From Candidatus Methanomethylicota archaeon (GTDB lineage Archaea > Thermoproteota > Methanomethylicia > Culexarchaeales > Culexarchaeaceae), in assembly GCA_020833005.1 (NCBI GenBank), contig JAJHRD010000007.1, positions 1 to 60,077 of the forward strand: a DNA stretch of 60,077 bases, read 5' to 3'. The translations under genes and the position numbers were made by a program. Positions 55,238-57,218 of this stretch are shown here, in pieces. The notes beneath the pieces were generated by a model. That model was not told the DNA's origin. It was given only the letters and a program-made list of their open reading frames with translations, and ran no database searches. Within the stretch, counting starts at the first letter, position 1. Each line of letters opens with the position of its first letter.

Positions 55238-56539
55238 ATGGTTATGTATAGGAATCGAATCATATTTGCAAGTATAATATTAATGGTTTTGATCGCAATA
55301 CCCATAACACCTGCAATCATTTTGAAAACCCCAATTGAAGATACGCTACTCGCCGAGCAATTACTATTGGATTTAATTCAAGGTAAACTCACAGGATTCA
55401 TAAAACTAACAATAAAACCAGTAATAAATGGAACTCCAGTTCAAGATACTGTTTGGTTCATAGCCATACACAACTTCACTGGAAGCGAACATAAGTATAG
55501 TGGCTTATCAGATAGAATAGTGTACGATAAATTCGTTAAGCCAGGAACATACAACATCAAAGTAAACAGAATACCCATAAAATCCACTGCTACAGGCAAA
55601 ACAATATACAAGCCCGTTGAACTATACATTCACGTGGCAACAGAAAACTATGCTGGAGGCATATACATTGATATCGAGCCAGACCAGCCAATAAAGAGCG
55701 TTGAAATCACAGTCCCACTACATAAGAGAGAACCTGCGTCTATTACATGCACCTCATGTAGTAGAAGCTCAACGGCAAATCTGCAGAGTGGTTGCCCACC
55801 AGACGCATACGAAGTTAGTCAACAATTACAATATGCTTACGTCAAATGTGGTGAATGCCACTCCATAAATGGCATAGAAGCAAGGTGGACAATCACCACG
55901 GAAACCCACATGTACTTCTCCCATCACAGTAGAGACTTAACATATAAATGGTGGGACATGTACGCACCATGCTATGCACTACTAGAGAAAACCGATACTG
56001 GATGGTACGATTCTGGGAAGGCTCGAGTTGAATCAAGTGCAGGAGATTATGTCGCCCAAAATAATTTTGGAGCTGTTGAAGTTTTAGCGCATGTGGGATA
56101 TAAGTGTGAGAGATGGTATGACTCAAATTTCGTTGGCTTAGATGGAGAGCACGTCGATTATGAATATTATATAATGACTCCCGTTGATTTAGATGATCTA
56201 GATGTTGGTGATCAAGTAAGCTGTAGTGAATGTGGAAGTAAGCCTCCATCAGGATATAATGTTATCGCTGAATCTACTCCTGATCGTATAATTGAATTTG
56301 AAGTTGGTGATGAGAGTTATTGGGAGTGGACTTCCGTATCCTTTACCTTCAGTTTCTCCAGCGGTAAAACTGTCAGTTTTGGTGCAGGTATAGCTGCAGT
56401 TAGAAAGTCGATAAATCCCCCCTATCTCCGTGTTATAGTTCATAATTGGGGTAATCAGGAGCATCGCTACTACTTTTGGTTTGAGGATAATAGCAAGCAT
56501 ACCTATATAGTTCATATGTCTTGGATACCACCATCATAA
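55238..56539 (+). CDS. Secreted Cys-rich protein of unknown function
   Basis: I do not recognise this 433-residue protein. A signal/anchor segment (residues 7-28) is followed by a beta-rich domain (about 50-170) and a Cys-rich middle: TCTSCSRSS, SGCPPDA, KCGECHSI, later YKCERWYD and SCSECGSK. The late CxxC pairs suggest disulphides or Zn sites in an external protein. The C-terminal domain has WEWTSVSFTFSFSSG and ends in MSWIPPS, with no C-terminal anchor. Layout, size and promoter recall the 11413/14691 proteins, but sequence similarity is not obvious. ATG 55244 is an alternative start. Confidence 0.75.
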   Translation: MVMYRNRIIFASIILMVLIAIPITPAIILKTPIEDTLLAEQLLLDLIQGKLTGFIKLTIKPVINGTPVQDTVWFIAIHNFTGSEHKYSGLSDRIVYDKFVKPGTYNIKVNRIPIKSTATGKTIYKPVELYIHVATENYAGGIYIDIEPDQPIKSVEITVPLHKREPASITCTSCSRSSTANLQSGCPPDAYEVSQQLQYAYVKCGECHSINGIEARWTITTETHMYFSHHSRDLTYKWWDMYAPCYALLEKTDTGWYDSGKARVESSAGDYVAQNNFGAVEVLAHVGYKCERWYDSNFVGLDGEHVDYEYYIMTPVDLDDLDVGDQVSCSECGSKPPSGYNVIAESTPDRIIEFEVGDESYWEWTSVSFTFSFSSGKTVSFGAGIAAVRKSINPPYLRVIVHNWGNQEHRYYFWFEDNSKHTYIVHMSWIPPS

Positions 56540-56595: not shown

Positions 56596-56692
56596 GCAAA
56601 AGCCATTTTAACGCATCTTCTTTGCAAGTTGCCCAATAACATCTTGGCAGAGAGTTTATATATTTTTATTGGAAAGGTTTAAGTGAATCAGC

Positions 56693-56809
56693 ATGGCTGA
56701 AAGGAGACCTAGAATAGGACGTATAAAGCCTATGTTAAGACCTAGGATTGGTCATATAAAGCCTAGGGATCTAGCTGGGTATTTGAAGGTGGAGGATTGT
56801 GGGTGTTAG
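56693..56809 (+). CDS. 38-residue basic protein with tandem RPRIGxIKP repeat
   Basis: A small gene that overlaps the next one by 11 nt. Its sequence has two copies of a nine-residue repeat (RPRIGRIKP and RPRIGHIKP), then DLAGYLKVEDCGC. The start is ATG 56693. It is very basic at the N-terminus, and the tail with two Cys could contact the retropepsin-like partner. Overlapping small genes of this kind resemble antitoxin-like partners, but no family is firmly recognised. Confidence 0.55.
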   Translation: MAERRPRIGRIKPMLRPRIGHIKPRDLAGYLKVEDCGC

Positions 56810-57218
56810 GGTTCGTGTGAGAATCAAGTATGGGGGGAGTTTGCTGGAAACTGTAGCTCTCGTAAATACTGGCTTTGAAACACCAAACCCGCAAATCCTA
56901 CTACCAGTTAAGGCTGCTGAAAAGCTTGGCATCTGGCCAAACCTACCGAGAGATGCGTCCATCGAAATTTATGATACTGCTGGAGGGCCTACAAGAGTAT
57001 ATAGAGTGAGGAATGCAGTTACAGTTGAAGTTGCTGGGAGGGAGGGGGGAAGCGTAGTTGCAGATGTCGTAATATCCCATTTGGAAGTTGAAGTTCTAAT
57101 AAGCGATAAACTCACAGAAGAGCTCATGATAGCCATCGAAAAGCCGAGTGAAGGTATATGGAGATTTAGGGATGAAATGGTTGAGAGGAAGAGTGAGAGG
57201 CCAGAAATATGGCTTTAA
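56799..57218 (+). CDS. Retropepsin-like protein with Asn replacing the catalytic Asp
   Basis: A 139-residue protein with the clan AA aspartyl protease half-fold: VRIKYGGSLLETVALVNTGFETP (residues about 6-29) aligns with the D-T-G active site, but the Asp is Asn 23 (NTG). Later IEIYDTAGGPTRVYRV and VVADVVISHLEVEVLISDKL (the usual second hydrophobic-hydrophobic-Gly-like region) match. With the Asp changed it should not cut peptides, unless Asn is deamidated. It overlaps the 38-residue gene, so the two act together. Confidence 0.65.
   Translation: MGVRVRVRIKYGGSLLETVALVNTGFETPNPQILLPVKAAEKLGIWPNLPRDASIEIYDTAGGPTRVYRVRNAVTVEVAGREGGSVVADVVISHLEVEVLISDKLTEELMIAIEKPSEGIWRFRDEMVERKSERPEIWL

Follow-up and report, generated by a model that had tools for sequence, protein, structure and literature searches.

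A predicted retropepsin-fold protein family with asparagine at the catalytic position and a near-obligate two-repeat partner peptide in Thermoproteota

Two small, usually overlapping genes carried side by side across Thermoproteota form a near-obligate pair, in which the first encodes a short basic peptide with two repeats and the second encodes a protein with a predicted retropepsin fold. With its catalytic Asp missing, the protein departs from ordinary aspartic proteases and is presumably inactive. The reading we prefer, though only tentatively, is that of a free-standing two-gene module of Thermoproteota, toxin-antitoxin-like in character, in which a dead retropepsin would hold its partner peptide in the old cleft.

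Layout of the gene pair

The pair was found in a window of 60,077 nucleotides from a Candidatus Methanomethylicota archaeon (contig JAJHRD010000007.1), where all of its features lie on the + strand. Inspection of the sequence and its ORF list reveals a 38-residue ORF with an ATG start (MAERRPRIGRIKPMLRPRIGHIKPRDLAGYLKVEDCGC, 56693-56809) followed by a 139-residue ORF with a GTG start (56799-57218), the two sharing 11 nt at 56799-56809. Both this overlap and a basic peptide with two RPRIGxIKP repeats had been described in the original prediction, and both are present. Repeat 1 (RPRIGRIKP, 56705-56731) and repeat 2 (RPRIGHIKP, 56738-56764) follow the family pattern R-[IV]-G-[HR]-I, with a spacing of 11 that recurs in 25 of 72 repeat pairs. 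Assignment of the peptide gene draws on the ORF reading, on homologous ORFs upstream of homologous genes and on a codon test. The two-Cys end that had also been predicted exists in the window peptide and is lacking from most homologous peptides; it arises because the first codons of the downstream gene, GTG GGT GTT, are read in the other frame. Conserved peptide cysteines were thus set aside as a by-product of gene overlap.

A TATA-like box (TTTATATAT, 56655-56663) lies 30-38 nt 5′ of the peptide ATG, and a Shine-Dalgarno-like word (GGTGGAGG, 56788-56795) lies within the peptide ORF, 3 nt 5′ of the GTG. Given these positions, the peptide transcript would have a short leader or be leaderless, such that a near-leaderless first cistron is followed by a second cistron that is probably Shine-Dalgarno-led. 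Similar words precede 56 of 69 homologues, as compared to 19% of random positions. The next long ORF 3′ of the pair runs in the reverse direction, which limits the module in the window to two genes. Directly upstream of the pair is a gene for a 433-aa Cys-containing protein (55238-56539), whose N-terminus looks secreted and which has no Pfam or NCBIfam match at cut-off.

Predicted fold and catalytic position

An AlphaFold2 monomer prediction generated from a 92-sequence alignment gives a confident model of the 139-residue protein (pLDDT 94.4, pTM 0.89). The best 50 Foldseek matches listed are all HIV protease entries (best E 1.9e-6, TM 0.72 by target), and the 50 VIA matches listed are all retropepsins, consistent with a closed-barrel retropepsin fold with a flap. 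Among the VIA matches listed, the highest include XMRV protease 3slz (Z 11.6, 110 residues, 2.4 Å), with Ddi1 proteins at Z 11.0 and the Rickettsia retropepsin APRc (5c9f) at Z 10.6. In the model secondary structure, the flap is a hairpin of residues 54-78 with a T-A-G-G tip (56958-57032), and the motif E98-V-L-I-S-D103 (57090-57107) takes the place of the second retropepsin motif. The retropepsin core proposed in the original prediction is supported by the model, for which the closest solved structures are retroviral or retroviral-like proteases.

At the level of sequence, the closest homology detected is to D-T-G proteins retrieved with the TIGR03698 profile (clan_AA_DTGF). The alignment to these by hhalign (E 2.7e-9) sets the N-T-G of residues 23-25 (56865-56873) on the catalytic D-T-G, in agreement with the predicted Asn on its first residue. 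The window protein itself scores 13 bits against the TIGR03698 cut-off of 57.35 bits, and 14 of 92 relatives match the profile at E <= 0.01 (best 6e-7). The window protein likewise stays below every Pfam and NCBIfam cut-off, and a Pfam search of the 92 relatives returns three families, each matched by one member. Among four proteins compared with the PADLOC profiles of known defence proteins, namely the window peptide and three pseudo-retropepsins, none matches a family at E <= 1. A phage tail assignment was rejected, as the matches to Pfam PF06841 (16.9 vs 28.2 bits) and TIGR02241 (15.2 vs 62.4) both fall below cut-off and the fold contradicts it. The single sequence hit to solved PDB structures (E 0.46) was dismissed as chance.

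We next consider how the catalytic position behaves across the family. Where clan AA peptidases carry D-[TS]-G, the window protein carries N-T-G, and the position reads Asn in 149, Thr in 5, Ser in 2, Ile in 1, Glu in 1 and Asp in 0 of 158 distinct relatives, the latter comprising all fetched loci after removal of duplicates and of 10 fragments that lack the catalytic column. Eighty of the loci are the best 80 of 149 from a search pattern that required Asn; without them, 102 copies still read Asn in 93, Thr in 5, Ser in 2, Ile in 1, Glu in 1 and Asp in 0. Asn was likewise present in all 24 rows first aligned. The Asn that might have been a private change of this protein is hence a near-fixed feature of its relatives. 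Copies with Ser, Thr, Ile or Glu are otherwise full-length, and those with Ser, Ile or Glu keep the peptide, such that Asn itself is not required. In the 92-row alignment, which predates the fetching of the Thr, Ser, Ile and Glu copies, residues L21, G25, E98 and D103 are invariant (92/92), and W121 and Glu27 are each found in 91 of 92 rows. Glu27 lies two residues past the N-T-G (56877-56879), and its equivalent is no acid in any of 23 aligned Asp-type cousins. Two further Asp-type cousins (L140, L157) have a Glu two residues past D-T-G and another small ORF upstream, which may resemble DUF5678.

The family shares a predicted single-domain retropepsin fold with clan AA peptidases such as HIV and XMRV proteases, Ddi1 and Rickettsia APRc. 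It differs from them in that the catalytic Asp is seen in none of the 158 copies, in its near-obligate small partner gene and in its N-terminus, where residue 1 pairs with HIV protease residue 7 in the VIA alignment. Complexes of HIV protease Asp25Asn (2nxd, 3dck) are among the listed structural matches (3dck in VIA). This variant is likewise an Asn-for-Asp retropepsin that binds peptide or inhibitor; it is engineered, in contrast to the change here, which is natural, lineage-wide and accompanied by a dedicated partner gene. The TIGR03698 proteins occur in related genomes, sometimes within 5 kb of the family. Of 30 such loci (L137-L166), motif extraction yielded 27 proteins from 26 loci, with two from L163 and nothing from L143, L145, L156 or L166; Asp is retained in 26 of the 27, and none of those 26 has the two-repeat peptide. 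The exception, L151, reads N-S-G and was kept outside the 26-cousin comparison. L150 and L152, to which it is closely related, retain Asp, and it has no visible repeat peptide upstream, indicating that an Asp-to-Asn change can occur alone and separately. A survey of clan AA describes single-domain prokaryotic members COG3577 and COG5550, also from archaea, and the term 'inactive' occurs 0 times in its main text (PMC2642776).

Two subfamilies depart from the common form. In the T-T-G subfamily (L211, L212, L216, L218, L223), no recognised peptide lies upstream in 5/5, such that partner loss and the change at the catalytic position coincide. A divergent A-I-A-N-[ST]-G-F-I-G subfamily (L182 at about 790, L031 at about 4410) has a different, acidic small ORF upstream. 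The acidic ORFs share G-Y-I-L-x-x-x-P-x-E-L, which suggests partner swapping.

Pairing with the peptide and matched subtypes

The original prediction asked whether the two genes always co-occur and overlap, and held that homologues without the small gene would count against it. A uniform scan finds a repeat-bearing basic ORF directly upstream of 140 of 158 copies, of which 117 have two repeats and 23 have one, leaving 18 with none. The same scan applied to Asp-type cousins finds two repeats in 0/26, one in 1/26 and none in 25/26. Among 2000 random positions in the same loci, 182 have a repeat (47 two, 135 one), a figure that overestimates the background, as some positions fall on real peptides. 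Pairing holds in the opposite direction as well. Across 12 whole genomes, a profile of 46 peptides has 33 hits with E <= 6e-4, and 33/33 lie directly before an N-type gene or its fragment, as established mostly by coordinate comparison with doubtful cases checked on DNA. Of 14 weaker hits (E 0.015-0.98), four adjoin such a gene or its remnant and the others look like chance. Co-occurrence in both directions, together with the near-fixed Asn, supports the predicted coupling of an inactive protease fold to a repeat peptide; pairing is near-obligate rather than universal, and overlap is seen in most loci only. The 18 copies at issue do not overturn it.

These 18 are a mixed group. Five are the Thr copies, five have a variant repeat by eye (L043, L213, L020, L229, L199), and the remainder include a fusion (L178), a truncated peptide (L105) and a weak adjacent hit (L188, E 0.06). 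No repeat peptide is seen upstream of L088, L029, the second L031 copy, L182 or the L090 fragment. On inspection, 8 of the 18 thus have a repeat that is degenerate or cut short, a fusion, or an adjacent hit that is weak. In L178 (G114:C1:567130-567573), an in-frame two-repeat peptide replaces the first strand of the pseudo-retropepsin, and the product may be functional or the result of a deletion.

Inspection of the 80 loci indicates that the two repeats lie 8-14 residues apart in 72, with a spacing of 10 in 34 and of 11 in 25. Seven loci have variant, wider-spaced or truncated repeats (L033, L092, L096, L097, L104, L105, L106), and only L088 is without any. The peptide ORF extends past the protein start in about 65/79 loci and is in the same relative frame in about 62/79; the motif search chose the wrong ORF for L033, L096 and L106, such that these counts, and the ORF count of 79/80, should be taken as approximate. 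The repeat persists across loci that differ in frame and in the length of the overlap. The median length of 67 peptides is 37 aa, with a net charge of +8. For 30 independent pairs of peptide genes, pS is 0.68 and pN 0.14, the pairs having been chosen at >= 60% peptide identity, which lowers pN; changes at codon positions 1, 2 and 3 number 101, 72 and 297. Codon changes distributed in this way indicate selection on the small ORF at the protein level.

Peptide and protein also fall into matched subtypes. The peptide class RIGHIYPLRR pairs with protein SALVNSGFEAETPQLL, FIGLIRDH..RIGRIKA with ALANSGYESETPQ, VFVGRI..RVGRIKV with ALLNSGYEAPTPQLL, VGYIRPLR with ALVNTGYETDVPELL and FGKLRPKR with NTGFETDEPEIL. 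Distances between peptides and between proteins correlate with a Mantel r of 0.68 across 69 loci, where the largest of 2000 shuffles reaches 0.14; the sample comprises those of the 80 loci that, once dereplicated at 90%, have a clean pair of repeats, and its peptides are thus motif-chosen. Peptide type, defined as the residue after the Gly of the first repeat, changes 7 times on the protein tree, as compared to a mean of 34.9 and a minimum of 29 in 200 shuffles. Tracking of subtypes to this extent indicates that the two genes are inherited as a unit, and contact is not implied by tracking alone.

We then looked for positions at which the two partners covary. The strongest covarying protein column is residue 59 in the flap strand, where, among 105 copies, an aromatic peptide residue occurs with Gly59 in 30/33 and a basic one with Asp or Glu59 in 47/55. 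One clade repeats the switch, with Tyr and Gly59 in L103 and Val and Asp59 in L047 and L072. Phylogenetic correction leaves 4 pairs on starred branches (1 changing the same way, 3 with no difference) and, by another test, 2 pairs. Covariation was rejected as proof of contact because there are too few independent changes, and the columns chosen to represent the cleft show, taken together, no significant enrichment (p 0.10). The two adjacent L031 genes were also folded as a read-through fusion, in which the protein part is confident and the peptide part is placed with low confidence (pLDDT about 56-62). In this model, the only strand-type residues of the peptide are Arg20-Ile21 of repeat 2, and new strand-type residues appear with them at Phe63-Glu64, just past the N-T-G, where the protein-only model has none. 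Arg20-Ile21 and Phe63-Glu64 may touch each other, which would be a weak hint that points to the substrate site.

Distribution and candidate roles

Relatives were found in 20 of 61 genomes in a first search, the window's own genome included, and a phylum-wide profile search detects it in 101 of 398 genomes, with up to 10 matches per genome, the ten best candidates in each being scored. Taxa include Caldivirga, Vulcanisaeta, Thermofilum, Thermosphaera, Methanodesulfokora, Bathyarchaeota, Nezhaarchaeota, Geocrenenecus and Culexarchaeia, mostly as MAGs. A copy in a same-genus genome (G001) is 98% identical; otherwise the nearest relative seen is from an Acidilobaceae MAG, at 76% identity. Two contigs are labelled as bacterial MAGs, of which one has the peptide (L063) and one does not (L088). 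One neighbour gene cluster of L063 recurs at L046 and L092, both from Bathyarchaeota, such that L063 may be mis-binned.

Across Thermoproteota the pair is multi-copy and patchy, often broken and with decaying copies. Order labels on the tree, available for 27 of 70 rows, change 12 times as compared to a shuffled mean of 13.4, with as low a count in 25/200 shuffles. Desulfurococcales labels change 9 times vs 9.2 when shuffled, and Thermoproteales labels are mildly clustered (3 vs 4.7, as low in 13/500). Labels this close to unclustered fit transfer, paralogy or both, and the module may have spread horizontally. The family has no match in plasmids, phages or IMG/VR, on which ground viral or plasmid cargo was rejected, and mobility is therefore read from phylogeny and copy number only.

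A HEPN gene lies within 5 kb of 11/55 copies where 3.75 are expected, and an Asp-type cousin within 5 kb of 5/33 where 0.99 are expected; these enrichments are modest, with rough Poisson expectations and places taken among the matches listed. Among 146 nearest neighbours, nucleotidyltransferases are commonest (4), with PaREP1 and HEPN among several families represented by 3. A fixed third gene was rejected, given that no neighbour cluster occurs in >9/80 loci and no Pfam family in >4/146 nearest neighbours, L034, L049 and L088 having been left out of the neighbour scan. In the window's own genome, an N-type pair shares a 9-kb stretch of one contig (G000:C47:657-9526) with a HEPN gene and two Asp-type retropepsins.

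To our knowledge, neither product of the pair resembles any toxin or antitoxin. The gene arrangement is nonetheless comparable to that of type II toxin-antitoxin systems such as HicAB and HEPN-MNT, in which two small adjacent genes combine with an uneven distribution and signs of transfer (PMC2701414). The criteria applied to HicAB by Makarova 2009 are a two-gene operon, small proteins and an uneven, apparently mobile distribution, and the main text of that paper has 0 occurrences of 'aspartyl' and of COG5550 (PMC2701414). Here, the genes are small, adjacent, usually overlapping and kept together, their distribution is patchy and multi-copy with decaying copies, and there is some enrichment near HEPN genes. 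The binding or toxin-antitoxin module envisaged in the original prediction is hence a plausible interpretation of these features. In literature matched by title and the start of the abstract, with partial open-access coverage, the pair was not found described among the matches listed, and within that coverage it looks undescribed.

We infer that peptide and protein bind, because pairing is reciprocal, subtypes are matched and the fold is one that binds strands. Weak hints from the fusion model suggest the former cleft as the binding site, and the protein would be a homodimer by analogy with retropepsins. In the mechanism we propose, gene 1 would give a cationic peptide of ~37 residues with two R-[IV]-G-[HRY]-I strands, and gene 2, translated from an internal ribosome-binding site overlapping gene 1, would give the retropepsin fold. 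Having lost its catalytic Asp, this fold could hold a strand without cutting it. Each repeat would adopt an extended strand conformation within the old substrate cleft or at its entrance, where Glu27 and the flap may read its basic or aromatic side chains. Tight cognate binding would then neutralise a peptide that is harmful when free, making the dead protease an antitoxin. The toxin-antitoxin-like role with the peptide as toxin, and the target that it would hit, are speculative. A more specific version of this reading is correspondingly more doubtful, namely a new class of conflict module in which a homodimeric pseudo-retropepsin antitoxin captures a two-strand cationic toxin in the cleft that once took substrate, with a matched peptide and cleft in each lineage, and which has spread across Thermoproteota.

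An unlikely alternative, though the one that survives best, is a non-toxic pair in which the dead retropepsin keeps the peptide permanently as a second subunit or ligand, the complex serving in regulation, scaffolding or peptide sensing. The strands of the peptide might, for example, complete the dimer or bridge its halves. Near-universal pairing and tracking of types would fit any obligate complex, and the two repeats match the two-fold symmetry of the retropepsin dimer. The N-terminal interface strand is also missing from the modeled protein, which begins at the equivalent of HIV residue 7, and Asp-type cousins often start with [MVL]-G-[HFIY]-x-[WFYRK]-[VA], resembling the repeat I-G-H-I-[YWKR]. 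The natural in-frame fusion in L178 agrees with such an arrangement, but may have arisen by deletion. When the cousins are scanned with a repeat profile, their N-terminal segment comes first in only 4/27 (L146, L154, L155 and the second L163 protein), with only L146 scoring within the bulk of true repeats, and the repeat as a detached N-terminal strand of these cousins, attractive by eye, was rejected. The patchy, multi-copy and decaying distribution would, moreover, be unusual for a housekeeping complex.

It is improbable that the peptide is a bacteriocin-like or conflict peptide acting on other cells, with the dead retropepsin as the immunity protein of the producer. A short cationic peptide with cognate subtypes and a multi-copy, patchy distribution would suit such a role, yet there is no recurrent transporter or processing neighbour (pieces of ABC transporters are found in 8/80 loci) and no signal peptide-like stretch by eye. 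More improbable again is that the Asn form is still a catalyst, either an unusual peptidase or an Asn-based self-cleaving or ligating enzyme, with the partner peptide as substrate. Asn is more frequent at the site than expected for a free residue, and in length the repeat matches a retropepsin substrate; against this, Ser, Thr, Ile and Glu also occur there in otherwise full-length copies, and Asp-to-Asn at this position abolishes cleavage in retroviral proteases, such mutants being listed as ligand complexes. A regulatory leader, with translational coupling or attenuation as its purpose and an irrelevant peptide product, is highly improbable, for although the ORF usually ends past the second start, in a preferred frame and with the Shine-Dalgarno-like word inside it, it is amino acids and not nucleotides that are conserved, as the excess of third-position changes indicates, and the repeat outlasts changes in frame and overlap length.

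Returning to the preferred reading of a dead retropepsin with its partner peptide, a large natural family has dispensed with the catalytic Asp of retropepsins and comes with a small partner gene of its own, in many naturally matched pairs. Should the peptide sit in the cleft, these pairs would amount to a natural collection of retropepsin-peptide specificities; should it be toxic, the module would represent a toxin-antitoxin type built on a pseudoprotease. In both cases, a common unannotated archaeal gene pair gains a testable meaning.
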